A stretch of 28,055 nt of DNA. Origin: a virus. The DNA lies in the IMG/VR virus record IMGVR_UViG_3300048591_001064, positions 1 through 28,055 of that record; one strand, 5' to 3'. Under the pieces are notes generated by a model, which saw only the letters and a program-made list of their open reading frames with translations, did no database searches and had not been told where the DNA came from. Below are positions 2,260 through 15,111 of the stretch, in pieces; position 1 is the stretch's first letter; the number at the start of each line of letters is the position of its first letter. Position numbers and translations under genes: made by a program.

Positions 2260-2375
2260 GTAGCCGGATGCTTGCGACAATTACCCTTTTAAAAAGTGTA
2301 ACCTCTGTTTGCACAGAGACACCCGGCTACCTTGATCAAGGCCAGCCAGAACTATAAAAAAAGGATAATTGTCGC
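2260..2375. repeat. Nested inverted repeats in intergenic region
   Basis: GTAGCCGG at 2260-2267 pairs with CCGGCTAC at 2323-2330. Inside lies a perfect CTCTGT/ACAGAG hairpin with a 4-nt loop at 2303-2318. A second, interleaved pair is GCGACAATTA at 2274-2283 and TAATTGTCGC at 2366-2375, each bordered by A/T-rich runs. The region separates the leftward gene at 2235 from the rightward micro-gene at 2497. It could hold divergent promoters or a regulator site, or be a recombination or replication structure. Confidence 0.5.
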
Positions 2376-2610: not shown

Positions 2611-2617
2611 CAAAACA

Positions 2618-2647
2618 AAAAGCCCCCTAATTGCTTAGAGGGCTTTT
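2618..2647. terminator. Bidirectional intrinsic terminator
   Basis: AAAAGCCC and GGGCTTTT form the arms of a hairpin with inner TAA/TTA pairing and a small loop. It gives a U-run on either strand, so it can end both the leftward head operon (last gene ends at 2685) and the rightward micro-gene ending at 2610. Confidence 0.8.
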
Positions 2648-2684
2648 CGCCTAAATCAACCCAATTATGAAAAAAAACTACTTC

Positions 2685-3774: not shown

Positions 3775-4872
3775 TTATGCCTGATCGTTAACCGCTAGGG
3801 CACGTGCGTGAATTTCTTTAAACTCAACACCACACTTAAAGTCCATCATCAGGTTAATGGCGCGTTTTTCTTGCTCCACCAAAATGGTGTTCTCATCGCT
3901 TGCGCTATCAATACCGTAGGTAATGTTATCAGGGGTCGTGCAAATCACGCGGCCACTTCCGGTTAAACCAGGTTCGCGCTTAATCCAGCAGCTTGTGCCA
4001 TCCAACATAACCATGCCTGGCTTCATGCCATCATAGTTGTTGTTTGCGCCATACAGCTCGCGGTATTTGCGGCTATACCAATCGTAAATGGTTGGGCTAA
4101 CCAATAGCTGCGTTTCACCATTCTTATAGGCTTCACCAAGGCCGTCATAAACAAGCTCAAGCTTATCAATTACGTTGGCGGCAGTTATGGCACCGGTTAC
4201 CACAGGGGCAATGTTGGTAGCCGTAATTTCAGCAGCAATAATGGTTTTAATACCATCCATAATAGCGCCAGGCGTAGTACCTGCAGCATTGTAAACACCA
4301 CTAAATAGGGCCTTCATGCGTATATTCTCCTGCACACGTGCTTGCACATATTCAGCAATCATTTGCTCAAAGGGGTAATCATAAGGGTTGCTACCTTTTG
4401 CGTACAATTTACCCAACCAGCTATTGTAAAGATCACTAGGTATAATCTGCAAGTCAACTTTAGCACCGCGCACCTTTAATATGCGTGCGCCAAAAGCAAT
4501 CGCATCAGTAGGTGGGTCAAACGTGGTACTCTTCTTTGGTCGTACCAAATCCGTAATACTCAAGTTTGGCAGAGGTTGCTCATCCTTAACATCATCCATC
4601 ACCGCAAAGCGGTCAGTAATGTTTTGCATGCCAAGCAGCGTTTCCTTAACATAAATGCTGGTGTCATTGCGGAAATAATCACCAAGCTTGGTTTTTAATT
4701 CAGTAATGCTAACCGTTTGCATAAGGGCCCCCTGCATGGTGGGCGTAATCATGCTTAAACCAAAAAGGCCAATGCTACCCACAATAGGGGCAACACCAAC
4801 AAATGCAGCAGATACACCCCCTAGTAAGAAGGTTGCAAATGCCGCGACAAAGAGAGTGAGAGTGCGTTTCAT
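3775..4872 (-). CDS. Major capsid protein with hydrophobic N-terminal extension
   Basis: A protein of 365 residues placed directly downstream of the protease/scaffold gene, where the major capsid gene of HK97-type phages normally lies. The body (from about residue 60) has an N-arm followed by alternating helical and beta regions, and a C-terminal stretch with FKEIHARALAVNDQA that fits an HK97-fold end. Unusually, the first about 50 residues are signal-peptide-like: MKRT, then hydrophobic stretches at about 5-27 and 28-48. From memory, similar extensions occur on capsid proteins of other Bacteroidota phages, and they are probably removed by the protease next door. Assignment rests on position, length and pattern rather than one motif. 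Confidence 0.75.
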   Translation of the reverse strand: MKRTLTLFVAAFATFLLGGVSAAFVGVAPIVGSIGLFGLSMITPTMQGALMQTVSITELKTKLGDYFRNDTSIYVKETLLGMQNITDRFAVMDDVKDEQPLPNLSITDLVRPKKSTTFDPPTDAIAFGARILKVRGAKVDLQIIPSDLYNSWLGKLYAKGSNPYDYPFEQMIAEYVQARVQENIRMKALFSGVYNAAGTTPGAIMDGIKTIIAAEITATNIAPVVTGAITAANVIDKLELVYDGLGEAYKNGETQLLVSPTIYDWYSRKYRELYGANNNYDGMKPGMVMLDGTSCWIKREPGLTGSGRVICTTPDNITYGIDSASDENTILVEQEKRAINLMMDFKCGVEFKEIHARALAVNDQA

Positions 4873-12724: not shown

Positions 12725-12856
12725 CCGCTAACAAGGGTTTGTAGCAATAGGGGCAGAAGTGCTTTAATTGAGCTGTGTACTTCCAATCAGCTTTGGTGGG
12801 TTATTGAACAGTAGTGCATCTAATCCCCTACTGCTACAAGCCCCGAACCGTTATAG
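12725..12856 (-). repeat. attC-like site D (long)
   Basis: About 132 bp. Minus-strand ends CTATAACGG and TGTTAGCGG flank arms CTTGTAGCAGTAGGGG and CCCCTATTGCTACAAAC. The stop codon TAA of the gene ending at 12851 is part of the opening box, a common arrangement in cassettes. It shares the central motif AGCTCAATTAA(A)GCACT with site C and a trailing CGGTTCG with sites B and C. Confidence 0.75.
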
Positions 12857-13246
12857 TTGCTGTAAATTAGGTATCACTTTTCTAAATAGATGTTGTGTTT
12901 TTGTCGTGCCATTATATATCTCACTCTCGATCTTGATGTCAATTTTTAATTTAAGATCTTCTGTCGGGTAAAACACCTGCAATCCTATTTGTCTGGCCAC
13001 TAATTCTTCTAACACAGCGCCTTTGCTTTCCAGCCAGTTGTGTAGCATATAAATAGCATCACACTCACACAGTGCTTTAATATCCTCGCGCATGTAGCTG
13101 TGCCATTCTTTATCATGCAAATGGGGCAAGGCTATCGGGTTTACAGGGGTGTGGCCTTGCTCTTTTAAAAAAGCTTCTGCCTTGGCAAATAGGGCGAGGG
13201 CTTGCTGCTCTATGCCGGTTATTTTTCCGGAGATGTAGATTTTCAT
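12851..13246 (-). CDS. DUF4406-like protein with unusual C-terminal tail
   Basis: A protein of 131 residues beginning MKIYISGKITGIEQQ. Residues 1-95 match the DUF4406 type, a nucleoside 2-deoxyribosyltransferase-like fold often found in phages: the SGKITG start, NPIALPHLHDKEWHSYMREDI in the middle and CDAIYMLHNWLESKGAVLEE near the end. Its substrate is not known. The last about 35 residues (LKLKIDIKIESEIYNG...) are AT-rich, not typical of the family, and run into attC-like site D. I chose the ATG at 13246 because it aligns with the start of the near-identical copy at 14413. That copy is truncated. Confidence 0.8.
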   Translation of the reverse strand: MKIYISGKITGIEQQALALFAKAEAFLKEQGHTPVNPIALPHLHDKEWHSYMREDIKALCECDAIYMLHNWLESKGAVLEELVARQIGLQVFYPTEDLKLKIDIKIESEIYNGTTKTQHLFRKVIPNLQQL

Positions 13247-13336
13247 GCTTTTTGGAGGGGTTGGGGGTTTAACCACGTAATGTTTTGGCTCATGGTGTGG
13301 CTGCGTTTTACGTGGTGAATTGTTTTTCATTCTGTA

Positions 13337-14200: not shown

Positions 14201-14413
14201 CTAGTTGTGTAGCATATAAATAGCATCACACGCGCACAGCGCTTTAATATCCTCGCGCATGTAGCTATGCCATTCTTTATCATGCAAGTGGGGCAGGGCC
14301 ATCGGGTTTACCGGGGTGTGGCCTTGCTCTTTTAAAAAAGCTTCTGCCTTGGCAAATAGGGCAAGGGCCTCTTGCTCTATGCCCGTAATCTTTCCGGAGA
14401 TGTATATCCGCAT
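14201..14413 (-). pseudogene. Truncated DUF4406-like copy
   Basis: Encodes 70 residues identical to the intact copy at 12851-13246 except at four positions. It stops at LHN where the other continues LHNWLESKG: the TGG codon is TAG here. A short homologous stretch (xxSKGA) continues after the stop and then similarity is lost. At nucleotide level about 19 mismatches are seen by eye over about 210 bp. It is missing the conserved C-terminal helix, so it is probably non-functional or a short decoy subunit. Confidence 0.8.
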
Positions 14414-14912: not shown

Positions 14913-15066
14913 CCCAACCTTCCCAACTCTCCCAACTTTGGGCGTTTTATGGCGCTCTTCCCAACCCGTCCCAACTTTTACTATTTGTATTTAAAGAAAA
15001 AAAAAGTATTAATTCATTCATTATTAGCTTGTTAGCTGTCAGGTTGGGAAGGTTGGGAGAGTTGGG
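14913..15066. other. Candidate replication origin (iterons flanking AT-rich core)
   Basis: CCCAAC occurs at 14913, 14922, 14931, 14960 and 14970, and its reverse complement GTTGGG at 15043, 15052 and 15061. In both groups three copies recur with exactly 9-bp spacing, so the two arrays face each other. The roughly 65 bp between are very A/T-rich, like a DNA-unwinding element. The region is non-coding (14862-15111), adjacent to the helicase gene, and not followed by a U-tract typical of a terminator. Confidence 0.6.
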
Positions 15067-15111
15067 AGCGTTTTTCATCTTTTGGCAAGGGCTAAACAGT
15101 TTTTTTTTTCA

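Follow-up and report, generated by a model that had tools for sequence, protein, structure and literature searches.

What is the function of an ordered array of inverted repeats lying just before a phage operon? The stretch of DNA analyzed here (the window) is a 28,055-base IMG/VR phage record, and most of its genes lie on the minus strand. The original prediction described two interleaved inverted-repeat pairs with a perfect internal hairpin at a divergent junction, considered them too ordered for plain spacer, and suggested paired regulator sites, a packaging site, or an attachment region. It was found that both pairs and the hairpin are real and that one pair is longer than had been stated. 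The A/A' pair comprises 17+17 nt (2274-2290/2359-2375) with a single G.U, and GCGACAATTA/TAATTGTCGC at 2274-2283/2366-2375 is a part of it. The B/B' pair, GTAGCCGG/CCGGCTAC, comprises 8+8 nt (2260-2267/2323-2330) and is interleaved with A/A', and a CTCTGT..ACAGAG hairpin (2303-2318) lies inside the two pairs. The strands of the two helices alternate (A-B-A'-B'), which is the interleaved order of a pseudoknot.

Could such an arrangement be plain spacer? When the surrounding 300 nt were dinucleotide-shuffled 3000 times, three of the shuffles contained an interleaved pair of at least 14 and at least 7 bp. A stricter 15/8 interleaved pattern occurs three times in the whole window, versus a mean of 0.03 and a maximum of 1 in 60 shuffles; the two other occurrences come from a CCCAAC/GTTGGG repeat around 14.9-15.1 kb. 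Folding, which the original prediction had proposed as a check, was performed with programs that do not allow pseudoknots. The minus-strand RNA of the element has a folding z of -5.5 (-49.4 kcal/mol) and the plus strand a z of -3.7, with 0/200 shuffles as good in either case. Both the interleaving and the folding thus exceed those of shuffled sequences, and the claim that the element is too ordered for plain spacer holds. The CCCAAC/GTTGGG repeats, nested both directly and inversely at about 14921-15072, contain the only other interleaved pairs this strong in the window.

On the minus strand, the parts of the element are arranged as follows. A candidate -7 box, TACTTTAG (2380-2387), begins 12 nt before A and matches TAnnTTTG with one mismatch; TAnnTTTG is the -7 element of Bacteroidota, according to excerpts of PMC7366714. 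A, GCGACAATTATCCTTTT (2359-2375), is the 5' strand of stem S1 and lies at the predicted 5' end of the transcript. CTGGCTG (C, 2343-2349) is a possible partner of B within the A:A' loop and would give an alternative fold; the C:B pairing is present in the predicted minimum-energy structure of the window leader. B (2323-2330) is the 5' strand of the interleaved helix S2 and is followed by the internal hairpin H3, CTCTGTGCAAACAGAG (2303-2318), and by A', AAAAGGGTAATTGTCGC (2274-2290), the 3' strand of S1. B' (2260-2267), the 3' strand of S2, ends 24 nt before an ATG. The B:B' helix closes a 71-nt domain (2260-2330) which contains H3 and A'.

The leader sits between this promoter and the first start codon of a minus-strand operon heading towards the terminase genes. 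The upstream capsid operon runs, in the order of transcription, from a protease gene (5957-4896) and the capsid gene (4872-3775) through small genes down to 2685, and is closed by a terminator-like hairpin (2613-2652, minus strand) about 225 nt from the leader promoter. In the downstream operon, all on the minus strand, the first gene (1996-2235) encodes a 79-aa protein predicted to be a winged helix (pLDDT 91), and the second (1294-1965) encodes a 223-aa protein similar in size and order to a gene product of the Microcystis phage Mea-Yong924-1. A PLD-nuclease-like gene (735-1313), a gene at the position of the 'terminase small subunit' in MZ447863 (452-805), and one further gene beginning at 489 belong to the same stretch. 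A 99.5% identical contig runs on into the terminase large subunit (TerL) gene, followed by a gene taken as a putative portal gene. Only one near-identical contig covers the leader region, and the region is unchanged there. A blastn search of 2000-2700 against phages found no DNA relatives, and a tRNA/tmRNA search of the window found none.

Both flanking operons run on the minus strand, so that the claimed divergence of the junction depends on whether a 37-aa plus-strand ORF (2497-2610) is a real gene. This ORF, which has one hydrophobic stretch, lies beyond a plus-strand stretch (2391-2471) resembling the Flavo-1 RNA (RF01705; 26 bits, E 0.005). The stretch is next to the element and on the opposite strand, immediately ahead of the minus-strand promoter. 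However, its score is below the threshold of 42, and it is separate from the interleaved helices. Two other features of the window were observed. The capsid ORF (3775-4872, minus strand) has a hydrophobic, signal-like start, as does the capsid of Mea-Yong924-1. The genes at 12851-13330 and 14201-14413 (minus strand) share the stretch ISGKITGIEQ.ALALFAKAEAFLKEQGHTPVNP, indicating a partial gene duplication.

Is the leader associated with a particular protein? The 79-aa protein has no match in PHROGs or Pfam, and five relatives of it have weak PHROG matches only. Searches of PDB and BFVD gave nothing for it at E<=0.001, and weak likenesses to winged-helix and primase/VirE proteins were seen there. 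A profile of the protein matched 9/395 genomes. In five of the six genomes with the first-gene protein at E<1e-4, a leader lies directly upstream; one of these five is in the profile itself. The first gene encodes a small protein carrying a tryptophan close to its end in 14 of 16 translated window-like leaders, as judged by eye (10 were aligned).

Does the arrangement recur in other phages? Mea-Yong924-1 is a syntenic relative of the window (52% for the capsid, 45% for TerL). At the syntenic place it has a terminator, a TATCTTTG box, and then a leader reading ATCCGTCAGAGTGAG - TGCCTGGACT - hairpin - CTCATTCTGACGGAT - A - AGTCCAGGCA - CC - ATG. The A-B-A'-B'-AUG order of the window thus recurs with unrelated letters. 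The same architecture is present in Mea-Yong924-2, in a Sphingobacteriaceae MAG, and in contig L019. The original prediction would have counted a lack of sequence conservation against itself; comparison with relatives shows that the letters are not conserved and the pairing is, so that this check would have misfired. In the other leaders with the same kind of first gene, B' lies 2-16 nt from the AUG, versus 24 nt in the window. At the syntenic place of L011, L012, and L018, the terminator only was found and no leader.

Relatives of TerL, the capsid, and the first gene were collected from viral contigs, phage records, and genomes, and their sequences were scanned, with a downstream ATG demanded in the scans. 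The resulting catalogue contains 37 distinct leaders of Bacteroidota-type phages and prophages, 19 of which were found without a promoter requirement. The others came from scans requiring a promoter-like box within 22 nt or from a core pattern. The catalogue was picked by eye from the scans; a few leaders found only by other scans were included and doubtful matches were omitted. The doubtful matches were the AT-rich L086, L047, L080, and L056, a second L132 match, and the minus-strand L041 match. Matches within coding sequences (e.g., L012 and L157 25938) and other-strand mirrors of true leaders (L020 and L004, minus strand) were also omitted, as were second matches scoring 22.5 in three full-length records (L135, L154, and L157), which were taken as spurious, the L135 one having a strict box. 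One clear leader is present in 9 of 10 full-length phage records, and the scan of the full-length record L137 gave no leader match. The core pattern of the gut-type leaders was found in five viral contigs, two of them previously collected, and in 0/395 genomes of the class of G001.

A promoter-anchored scan of 5.1 Mb on both strands gave 44 matches scoring at least 22, versus 4 in the reversed sequence, and its strict-box subset gave 27 versus 1. Since the leaders were found by a search for pairing, the percentages of pairing carry some circularity, which does not affect the reversed control or the box spacing.

Does the element act as DNA or as RNA? Interior departures from Watson-Crick pairing in A:A' comprise 13 G.U and 0 A.C in 34 leaders, which came from a search favoring G.U. 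The discovery was therefore repeated without the G.U bonus, giving 21 matches versus 1 in the control. The departures were then 8 G.U, 0 A.C, and 6 others, the last all in four AT-rich matches of three loci that are regarded as false. Related leaders aligned by hand were also compared. Double changes in A:A' number 2, 2, 5, 2, and 4 in five leader pairs (15 in total), and those in B:B' number 3 and 1 in two leader pairs (4 in total), with one broken end pair across the alignments. Single, pair-keeping changes only were found in A of L157/L168 and in B of L097/L098, and no variation in B of L092/L094 and of L139/L140. The A row of L019/L101, excluded from these totals, shows by eye one double change in register and no broken pair. 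Because both strands change together in related leaders and the departures are G.U and not A.C, the interleaved element is judged, from these sequence comparisons, to act as RNA and not as DNA.

The place of the element between the capsid and terminase operons, in the window and in its closest relatives, might suggest a cos/pac packaging site, an attachment site, or a paired operator. A fixed place beside the terminase genes was not found, however. The leader precedes the tape-measure gene in Flavobacterium phage 6H, an operon between TerL and portal in Bacteroides phage BT-TP2, and genes ahead of primase in Porphyromonas gingivalis phages, and a packaging or attachment site is therefore unlikely. 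A DNA site of any of these kinds is also at odds with the G.U departures and with the fixed register of the element to a promoter, at whose predicted transcription start it begins, and I regard it as extremely improbable. The three DNA roles offered by the original prediction were thus not borne out, while a regulatory role in the wider sense is probably correct.

How strict is the promoter register? A TAnnTTTG or TAnnTT box lies within 24 nt upstream of A in 32 of the 37 leaders (21 strict, 11 loose). The distance from the start of the box to A is 10-13 nt in 29 of these 32, being 11-12 nt in 26, and 16, 17, and 20 nt in the remaining three. A strict box at 9-14 nt was found in 20/37 leaders versus 31/11,100 random positions; a box had been required in choosing part of the catalogue, whereas its narrow spacing had not. 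Given this fixed spacing of 10-13 nt from a Bacteroidota -7 box, A would start at or beside the first base of the predicted transcript.

A long stem at the very 5' end could simply be a passive stabilizer that shields the mRNA from 5'-end-dependent decay, as the position of A at the predicted 5' end in most leaders and stems of up to 20 pairs would allow. This leaves the conserved B:B' helix, its compensating changes, and the additional A copy described below unexplained, and it is very improbable. The 5'-terminal position right behind the promoter would also suit transcriptional control, either by a nascent-RNA antiterminator (put- or EAR-like) or by an attenuator. Indeed, the window leader has a weak terminator-like site (2320-2301, minus strand) made of H3 with 8 pairs and a U-rich tail, one of three such sites in the scanned kilobase versus a shuffle mean of 1.5. 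Runs of U7 in gut-type leaders point the same way, and P4 CI works by transcription termination, according to excerpts of PMC4825925. Nevertheless, leaders that act by antitermination should occur on several long operons, whereas one clear leader per genome was found in 9/10 records. The leaders also precede different operons, and B' or the additional A copy is close to the AUG in most of them. Transcriptional control therefore seems improbable. In most of the gut-type leaders inspected (L092, L094, L246, L248, L249, and L136), a hairpin of GGGC/GCCC type lies between A and B, and the U7 run is in its loop.

The additional copy, A'', was defined as an exact copy of A of at least 10 nt within 160 nt after A', measured as the reverse complement of A'. 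It was found in 16/37 leaders, where it lies close to the start codon, overlaps it, or falls within the first codons, while shuffled A' sequences found such a partner in 7 of 7400 trials. The carriers include Cellulophaga phage Ingeline_1, Flavobacterium phage laban6-1, Polaribacter phage Leef_1, BT-TP2, two Porphyromonas phages, and gut-type prophages. The window leader has no A'' of at least 10 nt in that range. In 7 of 9 hand-picked leaders, A':A'' is a stronger duplex than A:A'.

Five gut-type leaders illustrate how these strands vary. Their identity is 0.97 for B and 0.92 for B' (16 and 15 nt), versus 0.40 for A and 0.47 for A'. Nevertheless, A:A' and A'':A' pair at 13/13 positions in all five. 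When strands were swapped between loci (20 swaps each), the mean fell to 8.4 for A:A' and 8.3 for A'':A', with a maximum of 11; in this test, the sites that paired best were used as A' and A''. In two gut-type loci, L092 (9591-9626) and L094 (9642-9677), a similar short upstream ORF starts at the end of A (MMVSPFRKSIG* and MAVSPLRMSIG*).

Is the C:B pairing of the window a second exchange of partners? With upstream partners only, an in-loop partner of B is significant (p<0.05) in 7 of 18 leaders (18 of 21 were tested), including the window (p=0.042). With either side allowed, 6/20 are individually significant, the window has p=0.122, and the Fisher combination over the 20 is 1.5e-6. A universal C:B switch for all leaders was rejected, and the pairing holds in a subset only.

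Does the leader belong to a known RNA family? All 37 leaders were scanned against Rfam. One match above threshold was obtained, and the other 36, including the window, had none. The match is the leader of phage 6H, which is a c4-2 RNA (RF02944; 49.4 bits, threshold 41); in the alignment, the closing stem of c4-2 is B:B' and A' lies inside it. This c4-2 RNA (L132 7809-7887, minus strand) is without annotation in its record. A direct c4-2 search of 30 records with E up to 10 exceeded the threshold in 6H only, gave three weak matches elsewhere (G411, G001, and G408; E 0.007-0.9), the one in the record of L087 lying off its leader, and found no c4-2 in the window. The span of B-H3-A'-B' is 71 nt in the window, 72 in Mea-Yong924-1, 75 in L019, and 79 in 6H. 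The leaders have the compact domain of the C4 clan, with a closing stem, an inner hairpin, and an antisense strand. Based on the 6H match, this anatomy, and the 71-79 nt B-H3-A'-B' order, the family is C4-like in anatomy; by the covariance-model test, the window is not a member of C4.

According to excerpts of PMC5320573, C4-type antisense RNAs occur in phages P1 and P7 and in several proteobacterial orders; the C4 of P1/P7 is a processed RNA of about 77 nt with a conserved core, its variable a' loop sets specificity, and it covers a ribosome-binding site. Like the C4 clan (c4-2, RF02944; P1/P7 c4, RF01695), the present elements are phage leaders with a stem-closed domain of about 77-79 nt in the clan, inner hairpins, and a variable antisense strand of the kind that, in the same excerpts, sets specificity and masks a start region. 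Unlike C4, they have an A that would begin at the first base of the transcript and pairs over 9-20 bp; the window is without a downstream copy, and the window and 35 others are below the model threshold. RNase P processing and action in trans are further marks of the C4 clan.

Taken together, a divergent c4-like antisense leader that controls the start codon of the first operon gene is the reading I prefer, and I consider it fairly probable. The leader probably controls whether the first gene is translated. Transcription would start at the first base of A, and B:B' would close a domain of about 70-80 nt containing H3 and A'. A' may be an exchangeable antisense strand whose partner is A, at the 5' end of the same transcript, or, in some members of the family, also the second copy A'' at or near the first start codon. 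The A:A' helix, transcribed first, would leave the start open. The A':A'' helix would close it, and in the window-like leaders B:B' beside the start region may do so. The exchange of partners would then decide the translation of the first gene, and a released domain could act likewise on other copies of the message, as C4 does. Here I infer translation as the controlled step, the identity of the 'on' state, the trigger, and the like behavior of the window leader despite its having no A''. The function of the window's own leader is proposed by analogy because it has no A'', its B' lies 24 nt from the AUG, its -7 box has a mismatch, and it has no c4-2 match.

The same structures could also form a cis-only translational switch of independent origin, in which a ligand, the winged-helix product, or folding kinetics flips the fold on its own message without the release of any RNA, and in which the resemblance to C4 is convergent. 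The lack of an Rfam match at threshold in 36/37 leaders, the position of B' 2-24 nt before the AUG in window-like leaders, and the in-loop alternative for B in a subset are consistent with it. Since A'' touches or overlaps the beginning of the next gene, whichever that is, the matched change of A, A', and A'' could also follow from a cis constraint alone. On the other hand, 6H has a c4-2 RNA as its leader, its parts following each other in the same order, and a near-random A beside a fixed core is the pattern of a specificity strand. I therefore consider a purely cis-acting switch unlikely.

The c4-like antisense leader could also be seen as a part of something wider, a widespread RNA-based, self-recognizing module of immunity or superinfection control in Bacteroidota phages. 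The first bases of the C4-like domain would copy the start region of the same message and serve as a decoy, A' would pass between A and A'' with B:B' as the fixed pivot, and different operons would carry the module in different phages. As A, A', and A'' diversify in step and the core is fixed, each phage may act on its own kind. The matched change fits a self-specific trans-acting RNA, but a cis constraint by the following gene explains it too. This wider idea is tentative and rather unlikely.

Other structured RNAs are similar in part. P4 CI RNA (seqA/CI/seqC) and Gifsy-1 IsrK have, in excerpts of PMC4825925, a strand complementary to both upstream and downstream sequences; unlike in P4 CI, the present leaders have the interleaved B:B' helix in addition. 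In the T4 gene 32 leader, a pseudoknot upstream of the start codon controls translation, as described in excerpts of PMC3014915. However, this short pseudoknot lies 67 nt upstream and nucleates the binding of the gene product, whereas the present leader has a long stem starting at the predicted 5' end of the transcript.

The order P1-P2-P3-P1'-P2' of HDV-like ribozymes resembles A-B-H3-A'-B'. These ribozymes have a P1 of about 7 bp and a fixed catalytic core, while the leaders are without a conserved core and have no match to them in Rfam. A self-cleaving ribozyme and splicing were rejected, there being no conserved core and many leaders without A''.

Is the leader family new? No description of it was among the matches listed from the open-licence PMC literature. 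The C4-type antisense leader and the structured mRNA leader are already known as kinds. As far as I can tell, three things are new: the spread among phages of Bacteroidota, a partner strand at the 5' end that keeps a fixed register to the promoter, and the way in which A, A', and A'' diversify together. These results suggest that Bacteroidota phages from marine, freshwater, oral, and gut settings commonly share the C4 plan in a form that includes a 5'-terminal partner strand, and public models recognize just 1 of the 37 catalogued leaders. Since the pairing alone is conserved, sequence comparison misses such leaders, and they must be sought by architecture. The family would offer a concrete switch for the timing of phage operon translation and possibly for who is immune to whom.

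Some features of the individual records were also found. The records of laban6-1, Leef_1, and the two Porphyromonas phages place a hypothetical gene across the leader. In BT-TP2 (L136), an RT-3 RNA (RF03068, 125 bits) lies at 40783-40932 on the plus strand, just before the annotated reverse transcriptase gene. The recorded host of Mea-Yong924-1 and Mea-Yong924-2 (L157 and L005) is Microcystis. Their Bacteroidota-type promoter and the relatives of their capsid and TerL suggest that the true host is a Bacteroidota companion.
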